Source of the DNA: Hydnum rufescens UP504
Lineage: Eukaryota > Basidiomycota > Agaricomycetes > Cantharellales > Hydnaceae
Assembly: GCA_014904985.1 (NCBI GenBank)
Contig: MU129052.1
Coordinates: 101,113 to 165,112 of the forward strand
DNA length: 64,000 bases
Reading direction: 5' to 3'
Part shown: positions 1-39,920 of the stretch, piece by piece
Layout: each line of letters opens with the position of its first letter
Position numbering within the stretch: position 1 is the first letter of the stretch
The notes under the pieces: model-generated
The model's input: the letters and a program-made list of their open reading frames with translations, nothing else
Told to the model about the DNA's origin: nothing
The model's database searches: none
Position numbers and translations under genes: made by a program

Positions 1-2677
1 ATTTGATGCCAAAGCCATTGGGTTATCAAAGTACAGAGAATCAGAGTCAGATTCATCAATGAAGGGCTTTGATTGAATGCAAGTAGACCTTGCAATGCCC
101 TTGGACTTCACAGCAGAAGCTGGGGCTTTCTGAGATTTCCATGAGGTCAGTTTGGGCTGCCTTGTTGAAGTCGTGGTTGACTCGGATCCAAAGTCTAGCC
201 CTGCATCTTGGACACAGCAGACTGCATTACCATCCCTGTCAATGACCAATGGGACAGCAGTGTCATCATCAGCATCATCCTCGCCCCATCTTTCAAGCTT
301 AATGGGGCAGCTATTCCCCTTTTGGAACTCGGAAACAAGGAATCTCCACTGTCCACTTTCCCAGCTCTTGTTGGTGTGGCTTGGATGTGGAGCAGGGCAT
401 TCTTCTTCAAGCAGCCACCCAACGAAGCGAATACGATGCCGGCGAAGCAATGCAAGTAATCGGACCCAAGGAACAGAAACCGGAAACCAGGCATGGCCAT
501 TGGAGATGAACAAGTTCCTCAAATACTTTGAGGTCGCAGAGTAGGCCGAGTCTCTGGTCTTAAGTTCATGTTCTCGCTGTACTTTTTCTGCCTCTTCATG
601 CCACTTCGAAATTCCAGTAGCATCCAGCCACTCATTCATGAGTTTAACGAACAGCTCCTCAAGAGACTTCTTCAGATTAAACTGCTTCTTGGCAAGCTGT
701 TGGATTTCTGAAGATCCAAAAAGGATGGCATTCTGTGCATGGGCAGCATATGCATCAGGCCGAGAGCAAACAACAAATGCAACAACATGGGCATCAAAAG
801 TGGCCATGTGCTGAATTTTGCCCATGAGAAGCTTCTTTTTCTGATGGATGTATTTGGCGAGCTTGGTGCCACTTGTGACTTGGACATCCTTATCCACCTT
901 CGATTGTTGGGTGAGTGATCGCAGGTCATCTAGCCATGCCTCTAGGCCGTCGGCGTCCCCATTGAACCGTTCTTTCTCCTTGGCATATTTGAGTTGAAGT
1001 CCACCTGGAGACACTAAAAAGTGGAAGGGGTTTATCAGCATCAACTAAACCATCACAATAAACACGGAGGACTAACGTTTGGGAAGACCAGCAAGTTTCC
1101 ATTTTCAACTATATCCATTGAATGGATTAGGCAGCCACTTGGAGTGGAAAGAGTCACCAAGATTTGCCAGTCGGAGGACTTGATGCAGTGAGCAGTTATA
1201 TTTTTTGGCCATGGCTTCCAAAGTGTGATGAAAGGCCTCAGTAACCCCATGCACTTCATCCACCAGTGCAGTAGGAAAGGGACCCCTATTGTACTGTGGT
1301 TGGTGAGGCTGGCCTTCTCCATCACTGCTCAATCAGGTGTCATTGATGTCATTGTCATCTTCGATGTCGCTAACACCTGCTTCGATATCTGAGCCCAGAT
1401 CAGCATCTCACGACTCCACTTCATCCTCCGAAATTGCTTCCACTCCCTTGCCCTTGCCATAGGGGACCTTGAAGGGTACACGAAGTTGTTTTCTTCGAGT
1501 GGACTTCAAAGTTGGCAAGGTGTGTGCATCAGTCACTGGGAGTTGGATTGATGGCAACACTTGATCCTTGGGATGACGAATGGGCAGCACAGGAACCGGT
1601 GCAGAAGGGCGAGTGCTTGTTATAGCAGGATTCACAGAGGGGCGACTCCCTGACAATGGCAATACGGACAGTTGGGACTCTGGATTGCTTAGGAGGAAGA
1701 AGTTAGATCATACATGAAGAACTGAAACCCAATCAAACATACCTTGACTTCTTAAGAGCCTTCACCAACTTCAGGATTTTGATCTCAAATTGTTCCAGCT
1801 TGAGACCGCGAGTGTTGGCAAAGAAGGCCAATCCTTCAACAATGCCAAGAGTGCCACATGGACCCTGCCTCATCTCTTTAGCAAGACAAGATACATTTAC
1901 ACCTTGAAAGATGTGATTAAGAGTGTGATCAATGAACTCGCAGTCTTCACTGGGATCTGCCCCTTGGTCAGGGAGGGACCAGAGTAGGGTGTCGACCTGG
2001 GTAGCATCCCAGACATAGAGAAGATCCCCTGGGCGTGCTTCTGGAATGCTAGTAGGCAGATTAAGTGCCAATGTCCATGTGTCATTGAGCAATTTGCGAG
2101 GGTCACCAATTTGTTGTGCTTCGTCCAACAGCTGGTCAGGCATATCAGATTCTGGCATAGACCCTCCATCATCAGAGGAAATGTCCATGACTGAGGATGG
2201 TCTGACATGACTGCCAGACAGAAGCACTGTGGGTTCTTCATTGTACCCAAACGTTGAAGATGCACATTTGGGTTCAGAGCTTTGGACGGGTAGGAGAGGA
2301 GGATCATTGGGGTAGTCTACCTGACTGGAAGTAGGAGTTCTATTCAGAAGTGATGCCGATCTCCGAGACTCATGCTGATATTCGACTTTGGGGATTTTAG
2401 GGTGAGATTTGAGTTGGATATATGCCCGATTCTTAGGGGGTTGTGAGGGGGTTGATGCGATGATGCGAAACTTCTTGTTCCTCTGGTTGCCTCCAGGTGG
2501 ACCCAATTTTTCCTGCTGTAGACATCATGTAAGAACAGGAGCAGGGATTCTAAGTAGAGGCGTACATACCATGTTGGCAGTTTCGTCATTGACTTCGTCA
2601 TTGACTTCGTCATTAGCTTCGTCATCTACCTTGCGCCTGCCAATATTGATCTGAGGATACGACAGTTCCTGAGACAT
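1..2677 (-). pseudogene. large hypothetical protein, multi-exon, partial and decayed
   Basis: A long minus-strand gene that runs off the left edge of the window. I chose the Met at 2677, which opens a short acidic exon with repeated NDEV units; another Met at 2737 is possible. Three GT-AG introns fit well: 2516-2569, 1688-1742 and 1014-1076. Joined, they give a low-complexity, serine- and proline-rich N-terminal half and a helical, charged C-terminal half (around 900-540, for example KLAKYIHQKKKLLMGKIQ). The frame is broken three times, at 1408-1410, 1333-1335 and 1105-1107. All three are TGA in one reading frame, and arginine CGA would restore each. I do not recognise a catalytic domain. It resembles the long lineage-specific proteins common beside Agaricomycete transposons, but that is inference. 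The spacing and same-strand arrangement with the next gene suggest they may belong to one unit. Confidence 0.55.
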
Positions 2678-3539
2678 TGCATTCTGTTGCGAATAATAGG
2701 TGAGCTTGAACTTGCAAGACAAGAAATCAGGAGACATACAATTTTGGATGACTCCTGTGCACCTGAGGATGATGGTTCCTCAGATGGGTCATCGAAGGCT
2801 TTGTGTTTGGGGACTCACAGTTGTGATTTTCGGTATGTGACAACTTGGCGCATTGCGAAAACACCCTTCACAAATTTTCTGGCCGGGTTGTTGAAGAAAT
2901 AGTTCTAAAACTCCCCAAGCTCGAAAATAACATTTCAGGGTGATATTGGGCAACACTTCCAGTCGGAGACCCAGTGTATGGTGAGATGGGGACAAGGAGA
3001 GTGTAATAGAATTGTAAAGAGAGTGAGCAATGTCTTGGTCTTGAGTCGGAGAAAAACAATGGTGAAGCAAATGCCACCCCCCGCAGTAACAGTTCCCACT
3101 ACTCTATCCAGGAGATTCAAGAAAATATTCAGGAATTTCCCAAGACCAAGCTGTCTGGAATGTGCTGGCTTGTGGTTCAGAGGTGCGACAAATTTAATAT
3201 GATGGTCCCAAAGGAGAGTGGATGATACGCAAATGATCCACCTCTCCAGCTGAGATGCTCAAGAGATAACTCAGGAGCCTCTCAAGCAGAGTGGTTGGTG
3301 CGTTTTTGGTGCATAGTGAGAACATCTCACTTGGTATTTGCCGATCTATTCAATGCCTCAACAGAATACCGATAAATGCCATTCCCATATGTAGATATAC
3401 ATACATCCATACATACATGCAGGATTAAAAAAAATGAGGTGATGGGACAGGGTAGAAGAACAATGAGAGAATAGCAAAAATATTAATCATCTCCCTCTGC
3501 TACAAATGACCTCATTGGGCTTCAGAAAGAGGGTCAGTG
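2678..3539. other. spacer between the two minus-strand hypothetical genes
   Basis: About 0.86 kb between the presumed end of the upstream gene and the start of the next. I see no convincing ORF on either strand. A short imperfect CATA microsatellite lies near 3400-3420. Any promoter of the gene starting at 2677 should be here, but I cannot point to a specific element. Confidence 0.4.
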
Positions 3540-6500
3540 CTGAACATGAAGAATCCCACTGGATGAACCATTCTTGGGACTCCGTGGACCCAATGGCTCA
3601 TATGCATTGCGAGGGGCGAGAATACCTGATGGACGCATCTCCCAGAGCAGCCGAATCTTTTGCCTTCTGGGCAAGCTCACGAACCAAAATATCGTACAGT
3701 CCTCCAGTAATGTAGAGAGGGACCCAGAATGGCACGATATTGTGGTTAAACCGATCCATGTGGGAATTCACAATCATCACTAAATGTCACTGTACCGCAT
3801 GATCAACCTCATCCAGAGCTTCCAACAGCCACTTTGTGCTGAAATCCACTCGATCCATAACCTGTGGTGGAGGATAATCACAATCATGTACAACTGGAGG
3901 ATAGCGATAGAAGTCCAGGAAGCGATAGTGAATGTAATGCCGTTAAGGAGGCATCTGTGCCAGGAGGTGGAGGAAAGAGGTGTAACTCCTGTAGGTCGCC
4001 AATCTCTCGATGGGGAGGCACATGCTCCAGTAGGGTGGCAAGATCACTCAGGGATGTCTGGTATGAAAAGGACATCTTCGACGTAATCAGGATCCAGCAC
4101 ATATCAAAAGGAAAAAATGGCTTCATGCCAACTGACAGGCACTGAAACAGCCTGTTCAAATTCCCACAGCAAATAATGACCTGAGACAAATCAGTCAAGA
4201 ATGAGGTCCCACCTCCGCTGGGATTTAAAGGCCAGCAACACTTTTTGCTTCTTGCATGCTGGGCCTTTTGCTGTTTTGTTCTTATGAACACGAACCCCGA
4301 GAAGGCCATCATGCATCAGCAATTGGAAAATTGCCTTGATGTCTACATCGGCAGTGACACCAAAGAATTCGATGCGATACCAATTGCCAACAACAACAAG
4401 TGGATTGAGGTCTTCCACCATTTCCCCAGAAGGCTCAAGACCGACTTCATTTGTACCCCCTTGCTCATCACAAGGCGAAAGTGGTGGAGCGATTGGCAAT
4501 GCTGCTTGAAAGGGGGGATCCACTGGCATATGGTCCTGAGGAGGGGGTACAGCTTGCTGCACATCCTGCATTTCGGAATTGCCAGGGTCAGGGGGAGACA
4601 CCACAGGACACACAGGTGTCTCCTGCTCTTGATGGTTGATTTCCATCTCTGGCCCATATTGCTGATTGGGGGGGGAATGAGGAGGGGAATGGCGAGGAGG
4701 GGATCGGTGAGGGGATCAGCGAGGAGGGGATCAGCAGGAGGGGATCAGCGAGGAGGGGATCGCAGAGGGGATCGGCGAGGAGGGGATCGGTGAGGGGATG
4801 GTGAGGAGGGGATCGGCGAGGAGGGGATCGGCGAGAAGGGGAATAGCGAGAAGGGGAATGGCGAGAAGGGGAATAGCAGAAGGGGAATGGTGAGAAGGGG
4901 AATGGAAGCGATGAGGAGAACGGAAGCGGGAAGGAGGCAAGCGACGCGAGGGGGAACGAGAACGAGACCGACGGGAAGGGCGACGAGGAGATGCCGAACG
5001 ATGGGGGGAGTAACATGAAGCGATGGCGGTAATCACCCTGAGAATATCGTTGCGAACCACACTCACCACTGGGTAAGCGACGGCCAGTAACTCGAGGTCG
5101 ATTATTCTTACGTGGGCGTGCTGGCCTTGGATTCGAGCATGGCTGGGACCATCTCTGAAGCACATAAGTCTCCAGGGTGGTGCAGTACACCTTATGCTTG
5201 CTCTGAGCGGCCAGGACCATCAGAAGGATGCGCTCGTGGGCATCTGCATTTCCTGCCAATGCCAGACCCAGGTCCACAGTGACCTGTGCCCACAGGGGAT
5301 CTTCATTCCGGGCCTTCTCAATCTGGGCCACAATGCGCACCTTTGCAGCGATCTCCATGTCATTCAAACGTGGCTCCTCATCATCTTCAACAGACAGATC
5401 GGAATCCAAATCGTTCCACTCTGGAAGATTGGTCGTGGGATCGACCCAAGGGGTTAGATCCTCATGGTCTAGATTGGGGGGGGTAGGCTCTTCGTCGAGA
5501 TCGATCTCAGCATCAATAGCAACGAGTTCGCCTTTTCCTTCCGGTGGCGAGGTCTTACGAGATGGCAGTGGCACCACATGGCAAAGGGTGACTGATGAAG
5601 GACCGAGGAGATTAGTGAGTGTTGCAGCCATAGCACTGTCCACTTCGCGAAGGCTGGCGCCAAACAAACCGTTGAAGATGGACCATATAGACTGATTATT
5701 ATCAGACATGAAGATCGGATACTGGATGTACCAAGGTGATGGATGCTTGACCTCTGCTGCTCGAGACATCTTCCAAATTTCCACAAAATCCCCATGCGGC
5801 TCAGTATGTTCAGTGACACGTTCAGCAGCCTCCTGGGTCTCCAGGTTGGAAATGGAACTGAAGGAATCTAGAGGATGGACCTCCCTCTCCTCCAAAACCC
5901 GAATCCCATGCAAGGGAACACCGTGGCGCTCCAACTCGGTGACTGGGACATCCACATTATCCATGATGAAGAAACAACCAATCAATGAGTGATTGACTCC
6001 AAAACAAGGCGGCTCCAAACCACAGACAAAGGCTATATGATCGAGGGTGTGATGCATGAGAAGTCGTGTGGTTGCAAGCATCTCCGCTTCAGTGTCCTCA
6101 ATGGCCACAACCTCCTTAGTAATTGCATGCTTAGAGTAGGATGCCTGGGCAGCTTCCGGTAGTTCTCGATCCCTACTCTCGACCAGAAGCATCACCAAGT
6201 CAGAGTGGTGGTTGGGTTGGAAGAGTGGCACGTTGTTGAGGTCCAAAAGGAAAAACTGCGCAGCCTCCAACCACCAGCAGTAACAGTCAACATGCGAATA
6301 TAAGCTTCCCGCACATTTCACTGATCCAGCAGTTATTGAGGTACCAATCGTGTGTGAGGCGAACTTTGCCGAATGGTAAGAACAGTGTGGTTCAGTGCTG
6401 GAGGAGATAGGGATGATGCAGGGCATTGCAATTGTAAATGTGCCTCACACACAGCTTGTCAATGAATGACCAGGCCGAATGTGGTTGCTGCCAGGATCGA

Positions 6501-7146
6501 ACATCGCAGGGAGACTCGGGCCAATGTCTATGCAGGGTTTCTCCAGGTAGCATAGAGTTAAGGCCAGAAAACAACAGGTTGAAAGGGGGACGTGCTGGAA
6601 CGGCGCCGGGGTTCTCCAACAGTCCCAATAGTTCCTCAGACATATCCTTCTCCCAAAGGGTATTGGTGTATTTGAGCACCCAGCCTTGGATACTGACAAA
6701 ACGGTCGTCAGAGATAGGCCGTTCACCGATGGCATCTTTGAAGACCAAGTTAGTCTTTGGGAACTCCTGATATGAAATTTATATAAATGCACCACGTCGC
6801 TTCTGCTTGAAGTGACAGAAGTACCGCTCGCAGACCTCTCCGTATGACTCGAGAATTGAAACGACAACTGGGCTTCATGGGGGTGAGAGGTTCGCCCAAC
6901 CGCCATTGCAACGGCCTGGAATTGTCCAAGGTGTCCACGGGTAAAGACTTCTCGGGTTTCGACTGTAGAGCTGGTGGTAGAGGCGGGTGTCGAAGTGTTA
7001 ACTTTCTTTTGGAACTTGGGGAACACCTTCTGTGAGCTGCCAGACGATGACGCTGCAGGGGTAGGAGATGCCAGCGTCGAAGAATGTTCGGTCGTTTGAC
7101 TCGGTTTCTTGCTCGAGGTCGGTCTTTTTGATGTAGTTCTCACCAT
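3540..7146 (-). pseudogene. large hypothetical protein with SR-like tract, decayed
   Basis: A minus-strand gene starting at the Met at 7146 with a Ser/Thr/Lys-rich N-terminus (MVRTTSKRPTSSKKPS). The longest open block is 6426-4588. It holds a conserved-looking core around 5720-5600 (MSDNNQSIWSIFNGLFG), an acidic stretch near 5500-5350, and a tract of SPSRxSPSR repeats encoded by the minisatellite at 4660-4905. A further block at 4646-4191 ends at a TGA (4191-4193), and coding potential continues to about 3540 through more TGA codons and at least one frame change. Near 6790-6750 the frame changes across a stretch too short for a normal intron. No enzymatic family is evident. It probably belongs to the same lineage-specific group as its downstream neighbour. 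Exon structure is uncertain. Confidence 0.45.
4660..4905. repeat. GC-rich minisatellite inside the hypothetical gene
   Basis: Imperfect tandem units built on GAGGGGATCGGCGAG and, further right, GAGAAGGGGAATGGC. On the minus strand they read as Ser/Pro/Arg/Leu-rich repeats such as SPSRYSPSRR and ADPLLADPL. The array lies inside the open block of the hypothetical gene and changes frame-specific composition without creating stops, so length variation here may be tolerated. Confidence 0.8.
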
Positions 7147-7149
7147 CTC

Positions 7150-7760
7150 TCTAACAGACCCGTACGACCCCAGAGCAGACTAACCACTCCAAAGTGCAAA
7201 GATAAGTTTGAGGGATAACTGAGACTCTGAGAGGTCGGAAGGAGAGTTAAAGTTGAGAAGATTTGCATCTGCACATTCGATTGAGGATGCCGAATATTTG
7301 TGCCAAACGTTACGGGACTTGATACTATTAGCCACATTAAAAAGGATACATTGTAATATTATTCCTAAGGCATTATCTATGAGTCTACAGCTGGAGTTGA
7401 TTGAACTCACTTGAGCCACTTCTGAAAACTAACGTGGCTCTTCGGGCGATATAGTGTACTTATGGCAGACTAGATAATACGTGTTTTCAGTATTCCATTT
7501 AAATCATATACATGTGCCAGTCCCACACGAATCCGTGATGCGATTCGAACTCTGTATCTAAAATGCAACAGTCCATTTCCATATATATATATGTTCACAT
7601 GACTCCGTGACACGATTCGAACGCCGTATCCAAAATTCCTTAAAATAACAAGCGAGCAGTGACTCGGGACGCGGCATCATACTGATATAATGAGTTCCTG
7701 AGTTCTTGGCGAATATCGCTCCAGGACGAGGGCATCCCATTCATTTTGGAGTGTGTGAAG
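7150..7760. other. non-coding stretch, no feature recognised
   Basis: About 0.6 kb upstream of the minus-strand hypothetical gene. The ORFs here are short and have no coding-like composition. A promoter for the gene starting at 7146 would lie here. A phrase resembling 'CACGATTCGAACTC/GCCGTAT' occurs twice (about 7530-7560 and 7612-7630), suggesting a small decayed duplication. Confidence 0.35.
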
Positions 7761-8268
7761 GATGACCGGGATTGAGGTCAGAGTCGCTGGACATGGGGAC
7801 GCAGTCTGAGAATCTATCCGTCCGGCAATATAAGCCTGACCAGTTTGAAGAGATGAGTCCACTGAAGGCTTACTGGTTTTTATTTGGATTAAATCCTCTT
7901 CTGTGAGTCTTCCCCAGTGATTGGATTCGGTTCCATTTTCCAAGATATATTTCTCTATCAAGTGACGCTCGTAAAGGTGTCCTAATTTCGAAGATACAAT
8001 GGGGATTTGGGGGGGATAACCGGGATTGAGGTGAGAGTGGCTGGGCATTGGGGCACAGTCTGAGAATCTATCCATGCTGGCAATATGAGCCTGGCCAGTT
8101 TGAGGAGATCAGTCCACTGAAGGCTTACTGGTTTTGATTGGGATTAAATCCTCTTCCATGGGCCTTTCCCCAGTCATTGGATCGGTTCCATTTTCCGAGA
8201 CATAGTTCTCTATGAAGTGATGCTTGTAAAGGTGTTCTGATTTCGAAGACACTGGGCACGTCCCCAGA
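7761..8268 (+). repeat. 254-bp tandem duplication
   Basis: Two adjacent copies, about 7761-8014 and 8015-8268, each beginning GAT(G/A)ACCGGGATTGAGGT and ending in ATTTCGAAGA. They differ by scattered substitutions and small indels, so the duplication is not recent. Neither copy has a convincing ORF. Function unknown. Confidence 0.85.
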
Positions 8269-9239
8269 CAATGCCATTGTTGTTAACTGGAAACAGCCAC
8301 AGCGTTATGACTCATGTCGAAATAGTCACAATAATCGAGCGTCACGTCACACGATTCAACTTAGGGGCTATACGAGTTGCAGTCCAAGTCTGTATCGGGT
8401 ACACCTCTTGGATCTATGTGGACAGGTGTATTGACTGCGGTGTGAATATTTGAAAATATATTGGTCAAAGTCTGACTTGACAAAACAACTGCAAGAGCTC
8501 AAGACAGAGCTTCTTAGCCTGAGCCTGCGTGTGCAAAAGATTGCCTCTCCGTTGGCATCCAAGCTCTCCCAAATGTGTGTTGCACATAGTGATTTTCTCC
8601 ACTAACAAATGAACACGCCTGTTTCTCCTACACCTTTAGCTCCACCATTCGCAAATCTATCACCTGTGTTCTGACTGTCACCAACCAAAAAGCATGCCAG
8701 AATCTGTGAGAATATTACAAGAACAAGAAGTACCTTCCTCTGGATGGACCTGCACATAAAGAAAACCCATGCCATCCGCCATCGATTGACAAGGGTGGGT
8801 TACCCCCTTCTTGCTATTCCCCTATTGACGCCCAATGCGCCTAATTCTTTTTTCTGGCACCAGCAATCAGGGAAGACAGAAAAGCAACACAAACAGGACA
8901 TTCACTTCCCTACCAGGAAATACACTCTTAAGGCATGAGGGAGCAAAGTGAAAATCACTCATCAGCTTCGACCTCACTGTCATGTATGTGGAAGAATTTT
9001 TGACTTGGAGGTCAGGAAACACTGTTGTATGAGCGAAAGTGGCCAGTATTGATCAGGCGAGGGTGCAGTTGATATAGCTAGTCTTAGAACATTATTTGAT
9101 TTTTGATTCGTGAACAAATTCGAATTTACTTTGAGGTGCATGTCTCTTGCTGGGGTGTTGAATCGCTGGTTTTCCAGTTTGCATCCGGAAAGTTCATTTT
9201 GACACTGCTTGTAGCCTTATTGCTTGGAATTGTGATCAT
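8269..9239. other. non-coding stretch, no feature recognised
   Basis: Nearly 1 kb between the tandem duplication and the motif array upstream of the KDZ gene. Only short ORFs without recognisable similarity. I see no inverted terminal repeat matching the one found 3' of the KDZ gene. Confidence 0.35.
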
Positions 9240-9740
9240 AAAATCTGTGGACGGGCATTCTACCCAGTCTGTGTGTCCCAGGCTTACACAATCCAGTTTG
9301 ACAGACAGAGTCATCGCTCGTGAACAAACATTCTACCCAGTCTGGGTTTACGCAACCTGGTTCGACAGTACTGATTACTGCCACGTATTGGGTCCACCAT
9401 TCTGATTGGCATCACACTTGTTGCTCTGTAAAATCCGTGAACAAGCATTCTACCCAGTCTGCATGTTCCGTCACACCACTGCTTGTAGCCTTATCACCTG
9501 GAATTGTGATCATAAAATCTGTGGATGGGCATTCTACCCAGTCTGCATGTCCCAGGCTTACGTGATCCAGTTCAACAGCTACTGTCAGAGTCATCACTCA
9601 TGAACGAACATTCTACCCAGTCTCAACCCGGTTCGACATTACTGATTACTGCCCACGTATTGGGTCCACTGTTCTGGCTGGTGTCACTCTCATCCTCGTA
9701 AAATCCATGAACAAGCATTCTACCCAGTCTGTGTGTTCTG
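9240..9740 (+). repeat. array of a 16-nt motif upstream of the KDZ transposase
   Basis: The phrase CATTCTACCCAGTCTG, or a one-base variant, occurs six times at roughly 75-115 nt spacing (near 9257, 9329, 9445, 9529, 9608 and 9715). It is usually preceded by GAACAA(A/G) or GTGGA(C/T)GGG. Longer flanking phrases, such as that for 'CTTGTAGCCTTAT', also repeat. The array ends about 190 nt before the KDZ start codon. Its position and spacing resemble subterminal repeats that bind a transposase in other DNA transposons, but that role is inference. Confidence 0.7.
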
Positions 9741-12700
9741 TGTTTAGGCGGTTCATGTGAGTGACACTTGATTATCTTCCTGGCTCCTACTATTGGTGAG
9801 TACAATTCTGTTACTCAGGCCATTGCCCACTAATGCTGATATGTTGGCCATAAGGGTTGTGATTAATTCATCCATAGAATTTGCATATGACTGTCCCACC
9901 AAACCAACAAGCACCACTGCCCATTCACCATGCCTCCCAAACCCTCCAATGTCAACATTCCAATTGATGAGAGCAACCCACAATCCTCTCGTAAGCGTAA
10001 ATGTCCCTCCAGCAGGCTACAAACCCATCCCTCCCCACCAACATCTGCTGCATACTTGAGTGCATATGAAGATAGTATGAGAATGTTCCAAGCTGTGACC
10101 AATTCCATAACTAAATGGAATCCCGCCCATGGGGCATCAAAGAGTATGACCCCCACTGTGAACCTGGGGCCCACATTGGCATCGATGTTTAGAGTGACAC
10201 CACTCCCCCAATCCAGTACCAAGCATGTATCCACCATGCAAGGTACGGCTTGGAAACTCAATCCCAATAGCAATACATTTGTGGCAGTTGTACCAACGAA
10301 TCGAGGCACTAAGGTGCAACGACCGACTCCCCAAGCCAATATATCTAGGCCTCGCTATCACCAAAATGCACCGTCTTCCGAGCCATCCCATCTTCCTGAT
10401 CCTGGTGGTCCATCTATGTTTTCTGGTGACATCGAAGAGGAATTGGCAGCAGGTGGCAGCAATGTTTCTTCTTTAACCTCACCCAAGGCAGTCAAGGAGC
10501 CCTTTGTCATTCAATACCCGCTGTATGCCAGAGATCTTGACCGGATATCTGTGGAGCAGAAACTGTCTCAACATGTGCGTCGACAGGCTGTTGCAGTGCA
10601 ATGTTGGAATTGTGATGTCATACCTGGCTTAATTCATCCATATATGGAGCACATGCATGAATCACAGTGAGGCCAGCTGCCTACAAGCCCTGTGCCACAC
10701 ACGTGCTCTTGCGATGGCATTGGGGTAATGAAGCAGGTGACTGCGGTATACATGGATCATGAGTACATGCTTGGTTTGATCTTGGTCCAGAAACTGGTAA
10801 TTGTCCATCTAGGCCTCAACTATGTGCAACTATGCATATGTCCATGTGCCCCTGCACCTGTCCAATTGGTAAAGCGGGGTTTGTTCCCCTGCTTGCCAGT
10901 GTATCCAGCTCTTGCTGTCAGCCTCGACATGCTGGAGTTTGTGTCCATGTTGTTTGTACACTTGGCTCCAAATGAGACAGCATGGGCAGATGCCCTGACC
11001 TCATTTTTGGCAAGGTGAGGCCATGTATTCGAAGCACAGGACTTGCTCTGCTGACGATTTGCGTCTGCCTTAGGCCAATACCAGGTCCTGGTATGCATTG
11101 TTACTGCCGAGATGGATAAACAGATCAGTGTGGCATGGCATGTAGTCCTCTCGCAAGACCCTGCTGATAGGGGTGATATTCCTCCAGAAACAATAATGTT
11201 ACCCATAATCGATGACTCCACCCCTATAATGAATTGTTTGTACATCAGTGTGCTGAGTCCCGACGGTTGGTCTGTTCGCCAGCCCTCTACTTCCACCACA
11301 GAGAATTCTTCTCAGTCTCATTGCAATTGCTCCACCTGTGCCCAACCCAACCTCCATACTCATTCTAACACCCATTCTGTACCGTCTGATTACCTTCGTT
11401 CTTGGTGTCTGTTGTGCTTCGGAGGTGATGTATCAGGAGGGGGTAAACTGTGAGTATTTTGCAATTTATCCTCATGTCTCTTGCTAATTTAGTGACGTCT
11501 TTTGCAGGCCCGACTTTTTCTTATGCCTTGATGCCTGCTTCGCCATCAGGAGGAACAAAGACTATGATCAGCGGCCAGGCCACAAAAAGCAACTGGGCAT
11601 TCAGGACCCTTGCATTGTTCCACCTGGAACCCACAAATTGCCCTGAAGTTTCCTGGAGATCTGGAAAGCAAGGGTTGAAGAAGCCCATCCTGGCAATCCA
11701 GCTAGGTGAATGTTGAAGAAGGGAGAATATGCCCTGGACAGCCCAGATGCTGATGATGACATTATCGAGGCTGGGCTACATGTCCCAAATTCGTCGCTAA
11801 ATATCTGTGGTGAATCCTTTGTTGCTGCAGATGGTGACAGGGTAAAGACTCCTGGAGAGCACTTCTCAGACACTGGTGTGATGGCAGGTGTATGTCGTCA
11901 TGATCATGTGGTCATGTGGGTGAATATGTGGACTCCCGGTGAACAGCAATTCTATGCATTGGCTCTCATTGACGCGATCATGGCCGAGCTTCCCACGCAC
12001 TGGCGAGTTGGTATCCTGTATGATATCAGCTGCCAGATTCATCACAGCATACTTAAGTGGAATCTGTTGCCTCGGTGGATACCCCGGATTGTGTTTGGAA
12101 TAAGTGTGTTTCATGCATATTGCCATCAATGGGTGTGCCAGCTATGGTACCATCCTCGGAAGGGGGGTGTCTGGGGCCTCACTGATGGAGAGGTTGCAAA
12201 CACCTTTGGAATGATCTTCGGTGCCTCATTCCAAATCTCTGTGTAACCAGATTCCATTGACGTTTGTTTGTTTTGGATCTCCAAATTGAACATCTGGACC
12301 ACTTGAAGATGCAACAGGCAGGTGTCTGGTTGGAGAAGCGTGTGAAAGCTATGAAGGCTCGCCTCATAATTGCTCAGGAGAAGAGAGCCAGAATCCCACT
12401 CAGCAATGAGTTCCTGCAGTCTCAATTTGAAGAACAGTGAGCCTACCAGAGCCGACCTCTCGAGCAACAATCAAAGAAAAAGGGATTCCTTGCTGTTGAG
12501 AAGATCCTGGCTGTCCGTCAATGCCTTGATGCAGCTTGGGATCTTGTTGAGGCCCTCCAGAAGCAACTCATTGCCATACCAGTGTCTGACACCATTGCAA
12601 CTCAGAATGAGGTTGGGGAGATTACATCTGCCCTTGCTGAACAAGAGAAAGTTGTCTCATGCTTGTCGAAGCAAGAGGATGATTTAACTGCCATCCTCAA

Positions 12701-12867
12701 GCTTGGAGACCTGGTGTCATATGACAACCTCAAGAAAATGAAGGATCACCCATGGTTTGAACACCAACTTAATATGCGTGCACTTAAAGCACACATTCTT
12801 GCCAAGGCATGCCAGAGGAATTTCAAGGCACATAATCTCACTGGTGCTTTCAGGAGCAAAGCCTTAG

Positions 12868-12934
12868 GCAAGTTATTCATAGTTGGAGTTTAACTTGTAT
12901 TATATTGTATTAACATTATTATCCTTGATGATAG
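12868..12934 (+). other. probable GC-AG intron in the KDZ gene
   Basis: Joining the exon ending CCTTAG to the one starting ATCACAG keeps the KDZ frame open (KAL then DHSTAEHM). The donor reads GCAAGT, the classic form of a GC-AG intron. The acceptor is GATGATAG and the length is 67 nt. The other KDZ introns in this gene use GT donors. Confidence 0.65.
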
Positions 12935-13479
12935 ATCACAGTACTGCGGAACACATGAATAAAGCATTGAAATGGTGGTATTGGTCAATCAAGAACCTTG
13001 TTATGGACTACAATAAGCACCGACTCAGTATGATCAAGCTTCGCAGATGGCGTGGGATTCCCCATAATGCAGTCATCCCTCCTCCCATTGAGATGAAGGG
13101 TCTTTTTAGTCTTGATGTGTACAATGATATCTGGCAAGATATTGGACTTGCCAATGATGAATTTGGCAGACAGGTCCCTCCTTGGCTAGGGGATGAGGAT
13201 GTCCAAAATGGGATCCAAATTGTTCAAGAAATTATGAATTGCTGTGATGAACTATATCTCTGTGAATGTGAACGGTCCTCTTTGCAGCATTGGTTCAATG
13301 ATGAATCGGCTGCATTGATCGCCGTTTTACAGGCTTCCAAAGGTAAGGGGGTGATATCTGGCAGAAGGGTGTGCTAATTTAGTCTACCTGCAGAGGATGC
13401 TGACCTCCAGTTCTTCTTGTGGGAACATGCTCAGTGGCTTATAGATTTGGGCAAGAGGTGGGGATGCTCCATTGATGCA

Positions 13480-14000
13480 TTAGCCCCCAATGTTGCTCAG
13501 TCCGAGGTCAGTCAATCCGAGGTCGGTCAATCTGAGGTTGGTCAATCCAACGTTGGTCAATCCGGGGTTGGTCAATCTGGGGTTGGTCAATCCGAGGTTG
13601 GTCAATCTGGGGTTGGTCAATCCGAGGTTGGTCAATCTGAGGTTGGTCAATCCAAGGTCACTCAATCCGAGGTCACTCAATCCAAGGTCACTCAATCCGA
13701 GGTCACTCAATCCGAGGTCGCTCCATACAAGGTCACTCAATCCAAGGTCGCTCAATCCGAGGTCACTCAATCCAAGGTCGCTCAATCCGAGGTTGGTCAA
13801 TACAAGGTCACTCAATCCGAGGTCGCTCAATCCAAGGTCGCTCAATCCAAGGTCACTCAATCCGAGGTCGCTCAATCCAAGGTCGCTCAATCCAAGGTCG
13901 CTCAATCCGAGGTCGCTCAATCCAAGGTCGCTCAATCCAAGGTCGCTCAATCCGAGGTCGGTCAATACAAGGTCGCTCAATCCGAGGTCGCTCAATCTGA
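13480..14000 (+). repeat. 15-nt tandem array encoding pentapeptide repeats
   Basis: About 35 units of a 15-nt repeat, consensus GGTCGCTCAATCCGA or GGTCACTCAATCCAA, in frame with the KDZ C-terminal exon. It encodes (V-A/T/G-Q-S-E/K)n. Because the unit is a multiple of three with few stop-prone triplets, two further frames (one on each strand) are also open across it; I treat those as shadows. Unit variants are interspersed, as expected from unequal exchange. The tail beyond it is acidic (SSDDDEEFEPEP) and ends SETSSDEE. Confidence 0.9.
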
Positions 14001-14404
14001 CATGCCTCAATCTGGCATCTCTTGGGCTGATTTCCCTCAACAAGGTGGCAGAACCTTGACTAGTGAGACCAGGGCTCTGCTTGATTGCAGGGTGCCCCTC
14101 CCACCCCTGTCCAAGTTGGCAGGGTCCTTAGCTGAACAAGCAGCAATCCCAAAGTTGCCAAGGTCAGACAAATGGACAGTGGGCCCTGGAGAAGGGGAGG
14201 TGGATAGCTCAGATGATGATGAAGAATTTGAGCCAGAGCCTCGGCCAGTTATTGCTGACCCAGTCCTACTCACAGCTACAGACCTCCTTCATGAGGGTCA
14301 TTTGGATGATATGGGAAGTGAGACTAGTAGTGATGAAGAATAAGTCCATGTTATCTACATATGTACTTAGCAAAAATAATACAGAAACTGAAACCATTCA
14401 GTTA

Positions 14405-14640
14405 ATTGTGGGGGGCCCCTAGCTGAACTTAGAAAATACTCGGGTTTGAAATGAGGCCTTTGGAGGCAGTGCTGAGGGGCCCCTGGGGCCCCTGGATCAG
14501 TACTTGAGCCCCCCTGAGCCCATCCAAGTTAGCCCACAGGGGCCACCAGGGGCCCCATGGGCTGTATATCTAATTAGAGCATATAAATGCAACCCTCAAA
14601 GTATCTAATTAGATACTGATAATTGGCTGACCAGCCTGTT
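14405..14640. repeat. terminal-repeat fragment related to the 5-kb palindromic element
   Basis: Read on the minus strand from 14640, this begins GGCTGGTCAGCCAATTATC, continues through TATCTAATTAGATA and TTGCATTTATAT, and ends in several GGGGCCCC palindromes. The same order of motifs forms both ends of the element at 34916-39909. It starts about 60 nt after the KDZ stop codon, so it could be the 3' terminal repeat of the KDZ element or a separate truncated insertion. I found no matching left end upstream of the KDZ gene. Confidence 0.7.
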
Positions 14641-26424: not shown

Positions 26425-26830
26425 CATGTCTAGGCATGTCTAGGTGTGTCTAGGTTGTTCTAGGTGTGTCTAGGTGTGTTCTAGGTGTGTCTAGGTGTGT
26501 TAGGTGTGCTAGGTGTGTTAGGTGTGTCTAGGTGTGTCTAGGTGTGTCTAGGTGTGTCTAGGTGTGTCTAGGTTTGTCTAGGTGTGTCTAGGTGTGTCTA
26601 GTGTGTGTCTAGGTGTGTCTAGGTGTGTCTAGGTGTTGTTAGGTGTGTCTGGTTTTCTGGGTGTGTCTGGGTGTGTCTGGGTGTGTCTGGGTGTTCTGGG
26701 TGTGTCTGGGTATGTCTGGGTGTGTCTGGGTGTGTCTGGGTATGTCTATGGGTGTTCTAGGTGTGTCTAGGAGTGTCTAGGAGTGTCTAGGACATGTCTA
26801 GGACATGTCTAGGTTATGTCTAGGTATGTT
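26425..26830 (+). repeat. TGTCTAGGTG minisatellite
   Basis: About 40 units of a 10-nt repeat, mainly TGTCTAGGTG. A homogeneous block of TGTCTGGGTG variants runs from about 26650 to 26745, and ATGTCTAGGACATG forms lie at the right end. The block structure indicates local spread of variants. The motif degrades gradually after 26830 and is still visible as scattered TAGACA/TGTCTA words up to about 28700. Confidence 0.9.
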
Positions 26831-27107
26831 CATAGGCATGCCTAGGACATGTCTAGACACATCTAAGCATGTCTAGACCTATATTGTATGTGCCTAGACA
26901 CATACTCACTGGTATGTACTGCACCACAATACTCTTAATGATGAGTTCCTCTGTTGTATCAAGGGATTGTGTGTCCACATGCCTAGACATGCATAGACAC
27001 ATATTTAGATCAGTTTGAGAATATCTAGGCATGCCTATGCATGATACTGCAAAGGATCATATGAGGGAGCCCCTATTGAAATGCTGGGTTGTGGATTAAT
27101 TCCCCCC

Positions 27108-34904: not shown

Positions 34905-34915
34905 CTCTTTACCAG
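34905..34915. repeat. target-site duplication, left copy
   Basis: CTCTTTACCAG, identical to 39910-39920. The pair brackets the 5-kb palindromic element, and one copy belongs to the chromovirus integrase coding sequence (minus strand CTGGTAAAGAG). Confidence 0.85.
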
Positions 34916-35099
34916 CCTGGTCAGCCAATTATCGGTATCTAATTAGATATTTCAAAGGTTGCATTTATATACTCTAACTAGATATCAGACCCAGGGGGCC
35001 CCCAGGGGCCCCTGCAATTCAGTCGAGGGGGCAGGTCAAGCAGCCCAGGGGCCCCTGGGGCCCCTAGCCATTAGGATTATTTATTATTTATGATTTATT

Positions 35100-36505
35100 A
35101 TTTATTTATTTGTTTATTATTATTATATACACTAGGCTCGCCCAGTGGGGCTCACCCATGCACTCAAGAAGAGCAGCCAGAGGCTGCTCTTCTTGCGCAA
35201 TGTAGCCAAGGAAAATACATACTGGGGGGGACTCACCATATATAGGGCCACTCGTTGGGCGCGTTCGGTTCTCGTTTGGTGCATTGCCGTTCGTCGCGTC
35301 ACCGTTCGTTGCGTCGCCATTCGTCATGTCGCCATTTGGTGTGTTGCCGTTCGGGCCCTTGTTGGTTTCGCGGGTTTTCGTTGTGGCCACAATCTAGAGT
35401 AATAAAAGATATATTAGTACAAATATTCAAACCAGCGCAAAAAGAGCAGCTTTCACTGCTCTTTTTGCACGGGTGTAGCTACTGGGGGGCGGGAAACTCA
35501 CCTTATATAGTACCACACACCCGCCGTGGCGGGTGTGTGGTTCCTCAGGCCCTCCTTTGACATGGTCACACCCTTGTTTTGTGCGTTGCTGTATGTCGCA
35601 TTGCGGTGTGGCGCATCTTCGTTTGGTGCGTTGCTGTGTGTCGCGTTGCGTGCCTTGGAGGTCTCAATCTAGAATAATAACAACACGTTAGTAACAAAAT
35701 CCAAAGCAGCGCAAAAAGAGCAGCTTTCGCTGCTCTTTTTGCGCCATTGTGTCTACTAAATATAAATAAAACATACCTTGCAGTACCCCACACCCGCTGC
35801 GGCGGTGTGGGGTACTGGGGCTGTGTACTGTGGCTCGTACGTACGGCGGTTCGTACGGGCACCCGTCGTTTGGGTGGCGATAAGGGGGTTATGGGGGTTC
35901 TGCCCCAGTACGTTTGGGACGTCGAGACCTACAAGATAAGACTTTAAATTAGTTAAGAATTAAAAACCATGCAAAAAGAGCAGCTTTCACTGCTCTTTTT
36001 GCATGGCTGTTGCTACTGAGGGGGGCGGGGACTTACCTTACATAGAACCACACACCCGCTGTGGCGGGTGTGTGGGTCCGGGGCCTCATTTGGCGTGGTG
36101 CCGTATGTCGCATCATTGGCGCAGGGCCATGTCACGTCGTTGGCGTGTGGCTGGGTTGTGTTGTTGGCGCATTGCCGTGTATCGCTTTGCCGTGCGCCGC
36201 ATTGCCGTGTCACGTCGTTGGCGCGTTGCCATGTCACATTGTTGGCACATTGTCATGTATCGCTTTGTCGCGTCGCATTGCTGTGTGTCGCGTTGCCGTG
36301 TGCTGCACTGCTGTTTGGGCTCTCGTCGTTTTGCGGGTTATCATGGTGCGTTGGACGGGCCCAATCTACAAAAAGGCGCATCAGTAAAAAACATTCCAAA
36401 GCAGTGCAAAAAGAGCAGCTTTCGCTGCTCTTTTTGCGCCATTGTATCTACTAAAACAATACTCACCTTGTGACCACACACCCGCAACGGTGGGTGTGTG
36501 GTCGG
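35100..36505 (-). repeat. left cassette array (minus strand)
   Basis: Five intron hairpins (near 35166-35194, 35437-35468, 35709-35744, 35969-36003 and 36405-36439) and four exon-end hairpins. On the minus strand the introns are 36366-36466 (101 nt), 35929-36036 (108), 35669-35776 (108) and 35394-35501 (108); a fifth donor is at 35236. Donors are GTGAG, GTAAG, GTATG, GTGAG and GTGAG. Acceptors are GTAG or CTAG. The exons between them are 329, 152, 167 and 157 nt. The exons are rich in AACGC-type words and would encode Asn/Thr/Ala/Gly-rich peptides such as NGDATNGDATNG, but their lengths do not keep one frame. Confidence 0.8.
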
Positions 36506-36559
36506 GTGCTTGCCTTTTCAGGCGGTTGTTTATTGTGGTTCGGAGATGGGGAGTAAGAT

Positions 36560-37198
36560 GTAGATTCAACGCCAGCAAGTGCCAATACTCAAGAAGTGCC
36601 CAAGCGCTGGCACTACACGCACAATACACATTAATAGCAAGCATGTAAATGTGTAATAAATACTATATAATAAATATTTGTCCAAAAAAAAGGAAGAAGA
36701 CGATAATAGTAAGGCAGAGTTCAATAAGACATGATATGGCTAATTGGATTGGACCACTTCTACACATCAGAATAGGCCCAAATTTAAATATAGTAATGGT
36801 ATGTATACACCCTACATGGGCGGCTAATTATATTGGACGGTTCTCACATTTTTCAAGTTTTCACGCCTTCAATTCCCTAAATAGGGAATTGAAGGTGTGA
36901 AAACTTGAAAAATGTGAGAACCGTCCAATATAATTAGCCGCCCATGTAGGGTGTATACATACCATTACTATATTTAAATTTGGGCCTATTCTGATGTGTA
37001 GAAGTGGTCCAATCCAATTAGCCATATCATGTCTTATTGAACTCTGCCTTACTATTATCGTCTTCTTCCTTTTTTTTGGACAAATATTTATTATATAGTA
37101 TTTATTACACATTTACATGCTTGCTATTAATGTGTATTGTGCGTGTAGCACCAGTGCTTGGGTGCTTCTTGAGTATCGGCACTTGCTGGCATTGAATT
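36560..37198. repeat. central near-perfect palindrome
   Basis: Arms of about 319 bp mirror each other around 36879 (TTCCCTAAATAGGGAA), with only a few mismatches. The identical open stretch on each strand (36649-36900 plus and 37112-36861 minus) is a consequence of the palindrome. It lies between the two outward-reading arrays, where a bidirectional promoter would be expected; AT-rich TATATAATAAATATT lies in each arm. The promoter role is inference. Confidence 0.9.
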
Positions 37199-39600
37199 GT
37201 GCAACTATGCAGCCACACCCAGCAACAGCCCAGACAGGCGAGCACACGACCACACACCCACTGCGGCAGGTGTGTGGTACTATTTAAGGTGAGTTCCCTT
37301 CCCCCAATGATACTGTGGCGCAAAAAGAGCAGTGAAAGCTGCTCTTTTTGCGCTGCATCGAATTTCTTTACTAACTTAGTTATTATTCTAGGTCCTGGCC
37401 TGGTCCCAGGTGCCAAACAACGAAATCCAACCGGCCAGGCCCCCACGGCAACACGCCAAACGAAACCACACGAAACGAAAGGAAACAACGCCAAACGAAA
37501 GCACGAGAGGTGGCAACGCGAACCACACACCCGCTGCGGCGGGTGTGTGGTTCTATATAAGGTAAGTATGCTTATACACCCACAACGGCATGAAAGAGCA
37601 GCAGATGCCGCTCTTTTGCGCCGATTTTAGTTCTTAACTAATACAGTATTTATTATTCTAGGTTATCGACCAGAAGCAGCAAAATGACGATCCGCCGAAC
37701 GAACCACCCAGAAATGATGATGCGACCTGCCAATGACGGCTGGCCAGACAAAACCCTGATGGAACCACACATCCGCTTCGGCGGGTGTGTGGTAAATTTA
37801 AGGTAAGCATCTGTACAACCATGCAAAAGGAGCAGCATATGCTGCTCCTTTTGCGTGGCTTTTCTTTTTTTTCTTTTTCACTAACTATTATTTTTTATTC
37901 CATATTGTCATTTGAACACACAACAAAGCCCCCCACCAAACGAAAGCTACGAACGTAACCCGCCAAAACCCCAACCAAACAAAACCCGCGGCCCACCAGA
38001 CGAACCCGGGACCGGAAACCCACGATGCGAGACCACAGAAAACACAGACAGAACCACACACCCACTTCGGCGGGCGTGTGGTCATGTCAAGTAAGCATAT
38101 GTACAACCGCGCAAAAGGAGCAGCATACGCTGCTCCTCTTGCGTGGCTTTTTTCTTTTTTTTTTTTCTTTTTCACTAATGTATTATTTATTTATTTTAGG
38201 TTGTTATCGGAACCCACAATGAAGCCCCCCGCCAAAACCCCAACCAAACGAAACCCCCCACGATCAGCTAACCAGACGAAACCCGCAACGCGAGACCACA
38301 AAGCGCAGACGGAACCACACACCCACTTCGGCGGGTGTGTGGTAATCACAAAACCAAGGAGAAGAACAGCAGGAACATAGAGTGCCACACACCTGCTGTG
38401 GTGGGTGTGTGGCATATTTGGTAAGTCTTCTTTTAATAGCTACAAATGCGCAAAAAGGGCAGCAGTTGCTGCTCTTTTTGCGCAGTTGTTACTCTTCAAC
38501 TGACACTTTATTTTTATTCTAGCCTAAGATGTCCTACCTAAACCCGCAAAACCACACAGCCACAAACGCAAACCCGCAACGACGAATGCAACGCAGAAGC
38601 CCCAAATGCCACCTCGTGACCATGCGAATAGGACCCACGCAAAGGGGCAACCAAAGGCCCACCATACCCCCTACGAATGCATGACGGCAAACGACGCCCC
38701 GTGCCAACGCATGATACCGAAATGAGCCAGACCACATACCTGCTGCAGCGGGTGTGTGGTCACCTAAGATGAGTTCCTTTCCCCCGTAGATACAGCAGCG
38801 CAAAAAGAGCAGCGAAGGCTGCTCTTTTTGCATCGCCTTTAACTATTTACTAACCTAACTTTTTTTATTCTGGATCTTGCTCCCCCAAAAACCCCCGAAC
38901 CCACGTGAGCTCCATACAAAAAACCGAGAGTGGAAGCGGTACGAACGAGTACCCCCACCCGCTTCGGCAGGTGGGTGGTACCATGGTTTTTTTTTTAAAT
39001 TTTATTTTATTTCTATGCATACAGTGATGCAAAAGGAGCAGCACAAGCTGCTCCTTTTGCATTGCTTTTGAATTTTTTACTAATGTATTCTAGGATCCGA
39101 ACCGAAACCCGCAAAACACACCACCCGCCCCCATATGCAAACTACACGACAGGGGGCCAAAATGAGTACCACACCCGCCTCGGCGGGCGGGTGTATGGTA
39201 CCATAAGGTATTTTTTTAAAATTTTCTATACGTACAGTGACGCAAAAGGAGCAGCACAAGCTGCTCCTTTTGCGTCACTTCAAATTTTTTTTACTAATGT
39301 CCACTATTATTCTAGGATCAAATCCAAAGCTCCAAAACGACAACCCACCCCCAACGGACATGCGTGGCCAGTCGAAACAATCCGTGCAATGGTGGACCGC
39401 CGAGCCCCCCAAATGGCCACCGATGAGCCGGTCGAACCCCCACCCAACCCCCCAAGGGAGAATTGGCTGGTACCACACCCGCTGAGGGGGGTGTGGTATG
39501 TTTTTTTTTAAATTGAATTTTTAAATAAATAAATAAATAAAGAAGTAAATAGGAATGGAACCTACCACCCATGACCGGGTGGTGTAATGATAATAAATAA
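37199..39600 (+). repeat. right cassette array (plus strand)
   Basis: Eight intron hairpins (near 37319, 37594, 37823, 38109, 38448, 38799, 39027 and 39240) and about eleven exon-end hairpins. Well-formed introns are 37289-37391 (103 nt) and 37562-37661 (100 nt); the exons between introns are 170 nt (37392-37561) and 141 nt (37662-37802). Further units have donors GTAAGC near 37803 and 38090 and GTAAGT near 38420, with acceptors TTTAG near 38200 and TTCTAG near 38521, 39094 and 39316. Two units look broken: the acceptor near 37895 lacks AG, and the donor near 38769 reads ATGAGT. Outer units are shorter, with stems grading from CCACACACCC to CCACACCC. Confidence 0.8.
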
Positions 39601-39909
39601 TAATTATAGACGAAACATCACCCCAGAGGGGGTATAATATAATAATAAATAATTGTGATCATCCCCAATAAGCCCATATGGCCCACTGTGCAAGTCTGAG
39701 CTTAGGTGACTGACCAATGCCTAACCCAATATATTGAAGTTCTGTGGCCAGTCTAAGTCCCACACAGGGGCCCCTGGGGGCCCCTGCTTGAATCACAGAA
39801 ATCAGGTTAGCCGGCCCCAGGGGCCCCAGCATCAAAACCTCTAGTTAGACTATATAAATGCAAGGCTCATAATATCTAACTAGACCTACATTTGTGGCTG
39901 ACTGAGTTG

Positions 39910-39920
39910 CTCTTTACCAG
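39910..39920. repeat. target-site duplication, right copy
   Basis: CTCTTTACCAG, identical to the copy at 34905-34915, directly after the end of the 5-kb palindromic element (...GGCTGACTGAGTTG). Confidence 0.85.

Follow-up and report, generated by a model that had tools for sequence, protein, structure and literature searches.

A probable non-autonomous KDZ transposon of Hydnum rufescens carrying two divergent arrays of predicted, hairpin-bearing introns

Drosophila FB is a foldback element, and multi-intron small nucleolar RNA (snoRNA) host genes combine non-coding exons with one structured RNA per intron. Galileo is a foldback element of the P superfamily (PMC4168063, PMC2775673). Among the Kyakuja-Dileera-Zisupton (KDZ) transposons, Zisupton makes 8-bp and Kyakuja 7-bp target duplications, with CA..TG termini (PMC12730594). 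A locus sharing features with several of these systems lies in a 64,000-nt stretch of the Hydnum rufescens UP504 contig MU129052.1 (assembly GCA_014904985.1, positions 101,113 to 165,112 of the forward strand; hereafter the window). Here, a central palindrome is flanked by two arrays of exon-intron cassettes that read outward. The initial annotation, made from the letters alone, had described a palindromic transposon-like element of this build, a description that is supported; the architecture recurs in each of the nine full copies examined. Sequence comparison points to a KDZ element that is non-autonomous and carries, as conserved cargo, two divergent, spliced, hairpin-studded, non-coding units, an explanation that is probable though well short of certain.

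Ends, copies and the KDZ transposon

Full copies of the element begin with CAGCC and end with GTTG or GCTG. Nine were compared: the window copy and eight others (L069–L076), chosen because both their ends were recognisable in end searches. An 8-bp target duplication can be read from the printed flanks of eight of the nine, the seven beyond the window being AGTTAAAC, GGTTACCA, GTTGGATG, AAACATTC, GACTATGT, CACAATGA and CATAAAAC; in the ninth (L071), Ns at the right end make the duplication unreadable. Three copies (L069, L070 and L073) show a duplication of precisely 8 bp, while the other five, window included, permit one to three extra chance bases. The element had initially been placed at 34916..39909 with an 11-bp duplication. 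The right limit and the existence of a duplication hold, but the element starts at 34913 (CAGCC) and the duplication is 8 bp (CTCTTTAC), followed by a CAG already in the target. This division of the 11 bp follows from the joined empty site, which shows the CAG in other copies of the retrotransposon that was hit: the joined site including CAG occurs at 15 places with at most three mismatches, one of them exact, and at none in the reversed control. The target is an inverted Gypsy-type retrotransposon with SH3_Tf2-1 and chromodomain matches at 34.3–34.7 kb, and an integrase-like frame, recognised by eye, lies on the right flank at 39.9–40.6 kb.

The family is large. A 21-base left-end pattern occurs 212 times genome-wide with at most two mismatches (0 in the reversed control), a number that includes autonomous relatives with CAGGC ends, and genome searches with the centre, the left end and the right end each gave at least 40 scored candidates. 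Further copies with the same cassette architecture exist, and the presence of copies at many sites speaks against an assembly construct. The diverged terminal repeats noted at the outset are present, as inverted repeats of 63 nt at 75% identity. Palindromes rich in GGGGCCCC lie inside both ends (34995–35067 and 39757–39830) and are candidate transposase-binding sites; similar GGGGCCCC-rich palindromes stand near the left end (14476–14556) and the right end of the KDZ transposon described next.

The likely source of mobility lies in the same window. A second left-type end at 14618–14638 adjoins a KDZ transposase gene and belongs to a KDZ transposon spanning C144:100083–115750, about 20 kb from the intron-array element. 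A second TTGCTAGA was predicted about 1 kb beyond the window from the flank and from related stretches, and was then found: C144:99950–101112 reads TTGCTAGA followed by CAACTCAGTCAGCC at C144:100083. The two elements share the right 155 bp at 97% and the left ~98 bp at 87% identity, and duplications of equal length, 8 bp, flank the KDZ transposon (TTGCTAGA) and the intron-array copies. Among 18 genome places matching all 299 bp of the KDZ end, five (the window, C452, C374, C249 and C170) have a KDZ domain in the same orientation about 2–3 kb inside; for the other 13, none is listed inside among the 150 of 584 candidates scored. A listed domain lies outside the end at C17 and 9 kb inward at C19. 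As far as open frames show, the intron-array element encodes no transposase, its longest frame wholly inside being 156 aa, and the KDZ stretches read contain none of its cassette hairpins. Among named proteins, the nearest KDZ relatives are from Hydnum rufescens, which makes a host of the Hydnaceae type probable. By shared termini and duplication length, the element is most likely a non-autonomous member of the KDZ family. Its initial description as transposon-like is thus borne out, with KDZ now added as the likely mobilising family.

The KDZ transposons show features of their own. L077 and L078, which share only the right end with the intron-array element and have no Pfam match, turned out to be right-hand portions of KDZ elements, and both hold open frames without Pfam match near that end. 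The transposon with its 8-bp duplication TTGCTAGA is represented by window positions 1–14638 and stretch L080. A 15-bp repeat of 33.5 copies (13495–13997) lies within the frame next to the conserved part of the transposase gene, on its far side (QSEVG-type repeats). A seemingly captured fragment of the PRP19 splicing-factor gene, in about two tandem copies with a period of 255 bp, occupies window ~7645–8251 on the minus strand and recurs at L079 2320–2870, with broken frames in both of these transposon copies.

Cassettes, splice signals and RNA structure

Reading outward, each cassette comprises an exon body, an exon-end hairpin (CCACACACCCGC...GCGGGTGTGTGG), AAG, a GTRAGT donor, a spacer, an intron hairpin (GCAAAAAGAGCAGC...GCTGCTCTTTTTGC), a TACTAAC-like branch and a TTATTCTAG acceptor ending in TAG. 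A covariance model built from 25 cassettes, of which the window and L075 supplied 8 each and L069 supplied 9, gives 100 full-length matches of at least 68 bits in the nine copies, 12 in the window copy and 11 in each of the other eight; these scores are not independent, since the copies share ancestry and the 25 training cassettes are among those matched. Judged by place in the copy, all 100 lie on the outward strand, with 4–5 cassettes in left arms and 6–8 in right arms (4 minus-strand and 8 plus-strand cassettes in the window copy). The other 99 matches (E ≤0.001) score no higher than 48.9 bits and are spread over both strands within the same copies; the model matches nowhere else in the window, nor in the KDZ stretches L077–L080. 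Four right-arm cassettes of the window copy (R3, R6, R7 and R8) are damaged or weak.

The core of the intron hairpin occurs exactly at 2112 places genome-wide and at none in the control. The idea that the element could spread introns gains no support, since the cassettes in the tested stretches are all inside element copies. About five hairpins among 50 listed places of the 2112 looked isolated; the two that were read (L081, L082) both match element copies over nearly the whole 351 bp, so that neither is a solitary intron. A search for the intron hairpin in viral contigs found nothing.

A consensus donor precedes 72 of 104 intron-type hairpins on the sense strand, against 0 of 104 mirrored and 4.8 of 104 shuffled, and donor, branch and acceptor all satisfy strict patterns in 57 (mirrored, 0; shuffled, 0.7); 7 of the 104 are terminal hairpins, which do not form cassettes. 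Together the signals match the U2 type, with a GTRAGT donor, a CTRAY branch and a YAG acceptor at fungal spacing. Initially put at 100–108 nt, introns are indeed nearly constant in length (mean 104, standard deviation 6.5), but their true spread, 93–116 nt, is wider (84 introns with both ends located by script). The proposed donor and acceptor at 37289/37391 are correct as read in the window. Without its hairpin an intron averages ~66 nt, which resembles the mean of 65 nt given for Cryptococcus introns (PMC5851062). By their signals the introns are spliceosomal, and their removal from the RNA is predicted.

Conservation is confined to signals and stems. Among 25 diverged cassettes, pairwise identity is 0.84–0.89 in the stems, 0.83 at the donor, 0.77 at the branch and 0.87 at the acceptor, against 0.36–0.62 in the spacers and exon flank. 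The first 80 nt of exons are near random, at 42% identity versus 37% when shuffled (80 sampled pairs of 29 exons), and homologous exons differ between copies by 1–2 nt; for these two reasons the RNAs look non-coding. The open-frame list, without a Pfam scan of the element itself, shows no protein gene in the element body. Coding exons were rejected: lengths modulo 3 divide as 23/21/18 among 62 exons, 26 of which have stops in all three frames, and single-base differences separate homologues. The initial suggestion of spliced variable repeats consequently fits RNA and not protein.

The hairpins themselves, with stems of ~11–22 bp and loops mostly of 4 nt, carry marks of RNA. Compensatory changes affect 13 of the 29 pairs in the two stems, compared with 4.6 after shuffling; none of 500 shuffles scores as high, and sliding the partner leaves at most 4 pairs. 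Intron loops are GNRA in 107/207 cases in sense and 1/207 in antisense, many of the 207 sharing descent; among representatives less than 85% alike, the counts are 7/33 and 0/33. UNCG loops close 49/189 exon hairpins in sense and 14/189 in antisense. Over the 12 innermost pairs of each unique hairpin, the ratio of G-U to A-C pairs is 18:6 for introns and 59:26 for exons; a first count over trimmed stems gave 37:19 and 71:27. In wider fixed windows it is 196:59 for intron and 84:85 for exon hairpins when unique hairpins are counted, and 26:15 and 14:15 among representatives. This test supports the intron hairpin as RNA and is neutral for the exon hairpin. In cassette R2 both hairpins fold (z -5.6). 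Action of the hairpins as RNA is favoured by covariation and by the strand specificity of intron loops, which, along with strand-specific model scores, lend support to the earlier suggestion that the element hosts structured intronic RNAs. None of 45 weak Rfam matches reaches its gathering score.

The near-perfect central palindrome first reported is present, with 316-nt arms at 97%. In 54 distinct arm sequences, those of the L075/L076 subfamily among them, a TATATAG-type site is present together with the leader TGTATTGTGCTTGTAG...GGCAATTGCC. A promoter is proposed because this TATA-like site and leader are conserved in both arms and because of the orientation of the signals; from this we infer one putative promoter per palindrome arm, firing outward. 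Arm identity is 97% within a copy (median, 29 of 31 loci) versus 84% between copies (266 pairs), so that arms appear to be homogenised within copies; in the other two loci, L029 and L070, the ungapped test gave no sufficiently long palindrome. L075 and L076 form a subfamily with another central palindrome and unchanged leader and cassettes, which suggests that the centre can be exchanged or rebuilt.

Coordinates of the elements and their features are collected in Table 1. Elsewhere in the window, minisatellites occur at 26427–26876 (10-bp unit TGTCTAGGTG, ~40 copies) and at 60994–62579 (21-bp units, ~15 and ~37 copies).

Table 1. Features of the intron-array element and of the neighbouring KDZ transposon (window positions)
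Feature	Position	Strand	Basis
Whole element, probably non-autonomous	34913..39909	.	Reading of window and copy comparison
Target site duplication, left copy, CTCTTTAC, 8 bp	34905..34912	.	Printed flanks and empty site
Target site duplication, right copy, CTCTTTAC	39910..39917	.	Printed flanks
Left terminal region, common to KDZ transposons	34913..35014	.	~98 bp, 87% to window KDZ element
Right terminal region, 155 bp	39755..39909	.	97% identity to right end of same-contig KDZ element
Central palindrome, 316-nt arms, 97% complementary	36564..37197 (arms 36564-36879/36882-37197)	.	Comparison of the arms
Right unit, putative promoter: TATATAG 37092-37098 and conserved 5' leader from 37133	37092..37200	+	Alignment
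Left unit, putative promoter: same TATATAG-type site 36663-36669 and leader from 36628	36561..36669	-	Alignment
Cassette L1 (exon-end hairpin, donor, intron hairpin, branch, acceptor)	36363..36512	-	Covariance model, 127.8 bits
Cassette L2	35926..36086	-	Covariance model, 133.7 bits
Cassette L3	35666..35823	-	Covariance model, 140.3 bits
Cassette L4	35391..35551	-	Covariance model, 154.8 bits
Cassette R1	37239..37394	+	Covariance model, 139.0 bits
Cassette R2	37512..37664	+	Covariance model; both hairpins fold, z -5.6
Cassette R3, acceptor lost in window copy	37754..37906	+	Covariance model and signal reading
Cassette R4	38043..38202	+	Covariance model, 113.7 bits
Cassette R5	38374..38525	+	Covariance model, 128.7 bits
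Cassette R6, donor AT for GT and acceptor TGG for TAG in window copy	38721..38876	+	Covariance model and signal reading
Cassette R7, without consensus donor	38940..39096	+	Covariance model and signal reading
Cassette R8, weak donor GTATTT	39156..39318	+	Covariance model and signal reading
KDZ transposon, 15,668 bp in total, right end outside window at C144:100083, TTGCTAGA at both ends	1..14638	-	End comparison and flank reading
KDZ transposase domain, PF18758	11512..12198	+	Pfam, 124 bits, E 7.3e-36
CxC1-like cysteine cluster of KDZ transposases, PF18802	10824..11009	+	Pfam, 24.4 bits, below the 26.9-bit cut-off

A proposed mode of action and its alternatives

A transposase of the KDZ family would recognise the ends of the element, move it in trans and generate the 8-bp duplication. 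The same promoter, present once in each palindrome arm, may drive outward transcription of two non-coding RNAs, each carrying 4–8 spliceosomal introns that are predicted to be removed serially. The exon-end hairpin just before the donor, together with the intron hairpin, would leave only a short unpaired segment around the donor. Serial, efficient splicing might then keep the RNA expressed and away from spliceosome-coupled RNA interference, and this expression could in turn maintain both transcription of the element and access of the transposase to its chromatin. Selection seems to act on splicing and folding, because the stems and splice signals persist, whereas similarity is lost in exon bodies and spacers; both processes thus probably matter for the spread of the element.

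What splicing does for the element is a more tentative matter. In Cryptococcus, intron number and position modulate mRNA accumulation (PMC3744415), and poorly spliced transposon RNA feeds a spliceosome-coupled RNA interference pathway, SCANR (PMC5851062). On the strength of these two accounts, a role in expression and in escape from silencing is the leading guess; the genome also has Argonaute-type domains, on three contigs. The fuller proposal, that a spliced, structured non-coding RNA is the cargo, that its intron arrays act in cis as an anti-silencing or expression device and that the element depends for its spread on splicing itself rather than on a protein or on terminal repeats alone, is conceivable but held with low confidence.

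Several observations weigh against this account. The silencing-escape role of the spliced arrays is tentative and less likely than not. Common descent of cassettes and copies inflates most of the counts. In diverged representatives, exon loops are UNCG in only 1/22 cases versus 0/22, a weak sign of RNA, and exon hairpins lose the G-U bias in wider windows. The sequences of the leader alignment were retrieved by a 16-base key that is part of that leader, so that only the parts beyond the key test conservation. A search for a retrocopy spliced at one exon-exon junction found none: there were 22 matches, each with 3 mismatches and all unspliced. These 22 retain the acceptor AG, an outcome that the mismatch limit favours, and nothing is concluded from it. 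In 9/9 copies the donors of the two outermost right-arm cassettes are weak, and some cassettes may stay unspliced, as if reading from the centre often ended ahead of these two.

The hairpins might instead act as DNA, as transposase-binding sites or cruciform palindromes, with splice-like motifs carried along as a single ancestral unit was duplicated. Both arms contain the stems repeatedly, as near-perfect palindromes in the DNA, palindrome-correcting repair could produce compensatory changes, the palindrome arms are homogenised (97% within copies versus 84% between), and in diverged representatives the exon-hairpin loops and G-U counts are nearly without strand bias. Against a role at the DNA level stand the strand specificity of the intron loops (GNRA 107 versus 1, and 7 versus 0 in representatives), the conservation of donor, branch and acceptor amid randomised spacers, the restriction of full cassette matches above 49 bits to one strand, and a KDZ transposon with similar ends that has no such hairpins in the stretches read. 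These points make it improbable. It is also unlikely that the introns release small hairpin RNAs, mirtron-like or regulatory, which would turn the element into a mobile small-RNA array. Each intron does hold one look-alike hairpin, with 2112 exact stem-core places, and Argonaute-type domains are present on three contigs of the genome. Yet the stems of ~11–22 bp, mostly with 4-nt loops, are short for Dicer substrates, no Rfam family is reached at its gathering score, and the exon-end hairpins are left unexplained.

A regular exon-intron anatomy with consensus signals would also be expected of decayed protein-coding genes with many introns, an origin that is hardly tenable here: homologous exons differ by 1–2 nt, exon lengths divide 23/21/18 modulo 3, stops fall in all frames of 26/62 exons, the longest frame is 156 aa, and conservation rests in signals and stems, with near-random sequence in what would be the coding part. 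As for the mobiliser, duplications of Mutator-like elements are 9–11 bp long, and an 11-bp duplication would suit them. Mutator-like elements were rejected because the duplications of L069, L070 and L073 measure 8 bp and no more. Duplications of 8 bp are also made by hAT elements (PMC12730594), and hAT transposase domains occur in the genome, one of them on C142, where it lies ~7 kb inward from a left end in the list. This is the sole case within 10 kb among 100 listed of the 212 left ends (judged by eye), and at C142 a KDZ domain lies closer, ~2 kb inward of the same left end, so that hAT was set aside. Given the common duplication of 8 bp and the similarity of the ends to those of a KDZ transposon, a foldback element of hAT or Mutator-like type is very unlikely, and assignment to KDZ remains preferred.

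Relation to described systems

The intron-array element shares with KDZ transposons the CA...TG termini and the 8-bp duplication. It differs from them in its length of 5 kb and in that no transposase gene was found, a central palindrome and two intron arrays taking the place of genes. With foldback elements it has in common large inverted arms, central symmetry and arrays of repeats in the arms. Its terminal repeats, however, are only ~63 bp long and 75% identical, the near-perfect symmetry is that of the 316-nt palindrome, and the arms are divergent intron-cassette arrays whose units are inverted yet diverged. Its ends are also KDZ-like, unlike those of Galileo as a member of the P superfamily (PMC4168063, PMC2775673).

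Introners, as described in PMC9860276, resemble it as non-autonomous transposons carrying spliceosomal introns. An introner is a single intron in a host exon, from which it is spliced, whereas the window copy lies in a retrotransposon and holds many introns in its own putative transcripts. The internally symmetrical stwintrons of fungi (PMC8469720) are likewise symmetry-related spliceosomal introns, but are described there as nested; those of the element are in tandem within a transposon. The likeness to snoRNA host genes lies in non-coding exons and one structured RNA per intron; unlike such genes, the element has no Rfam match at the gathering score and bears conserved hairpins at exon ends too.

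No element of comparable build was found in the open-licence papers searched. Judged from its sequence, the locus would represent a known kind of element, a non-autonomous KDZ transposon with foldback symmetry, with a new cargo, a structured-intron array without a close known match. Non-autonomous transposons are usually viewed as ends plus filler; here, the filler retains intron signals and hairpins. Since 100 cassettes in nine copies keep these signals while the intervening sequence randomises, selection on splicing appears to operate inside a selfish element. SCANR, the Cryptococcus defence, treats poor splicing as a mark of transposons (PMC5851062), and an element with strong introns makes such an arms race testable. 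Its look-alike introns, with 2112 exact intron-hairpin cores, form a natural library on how hairpins near splice sites affect splicing.

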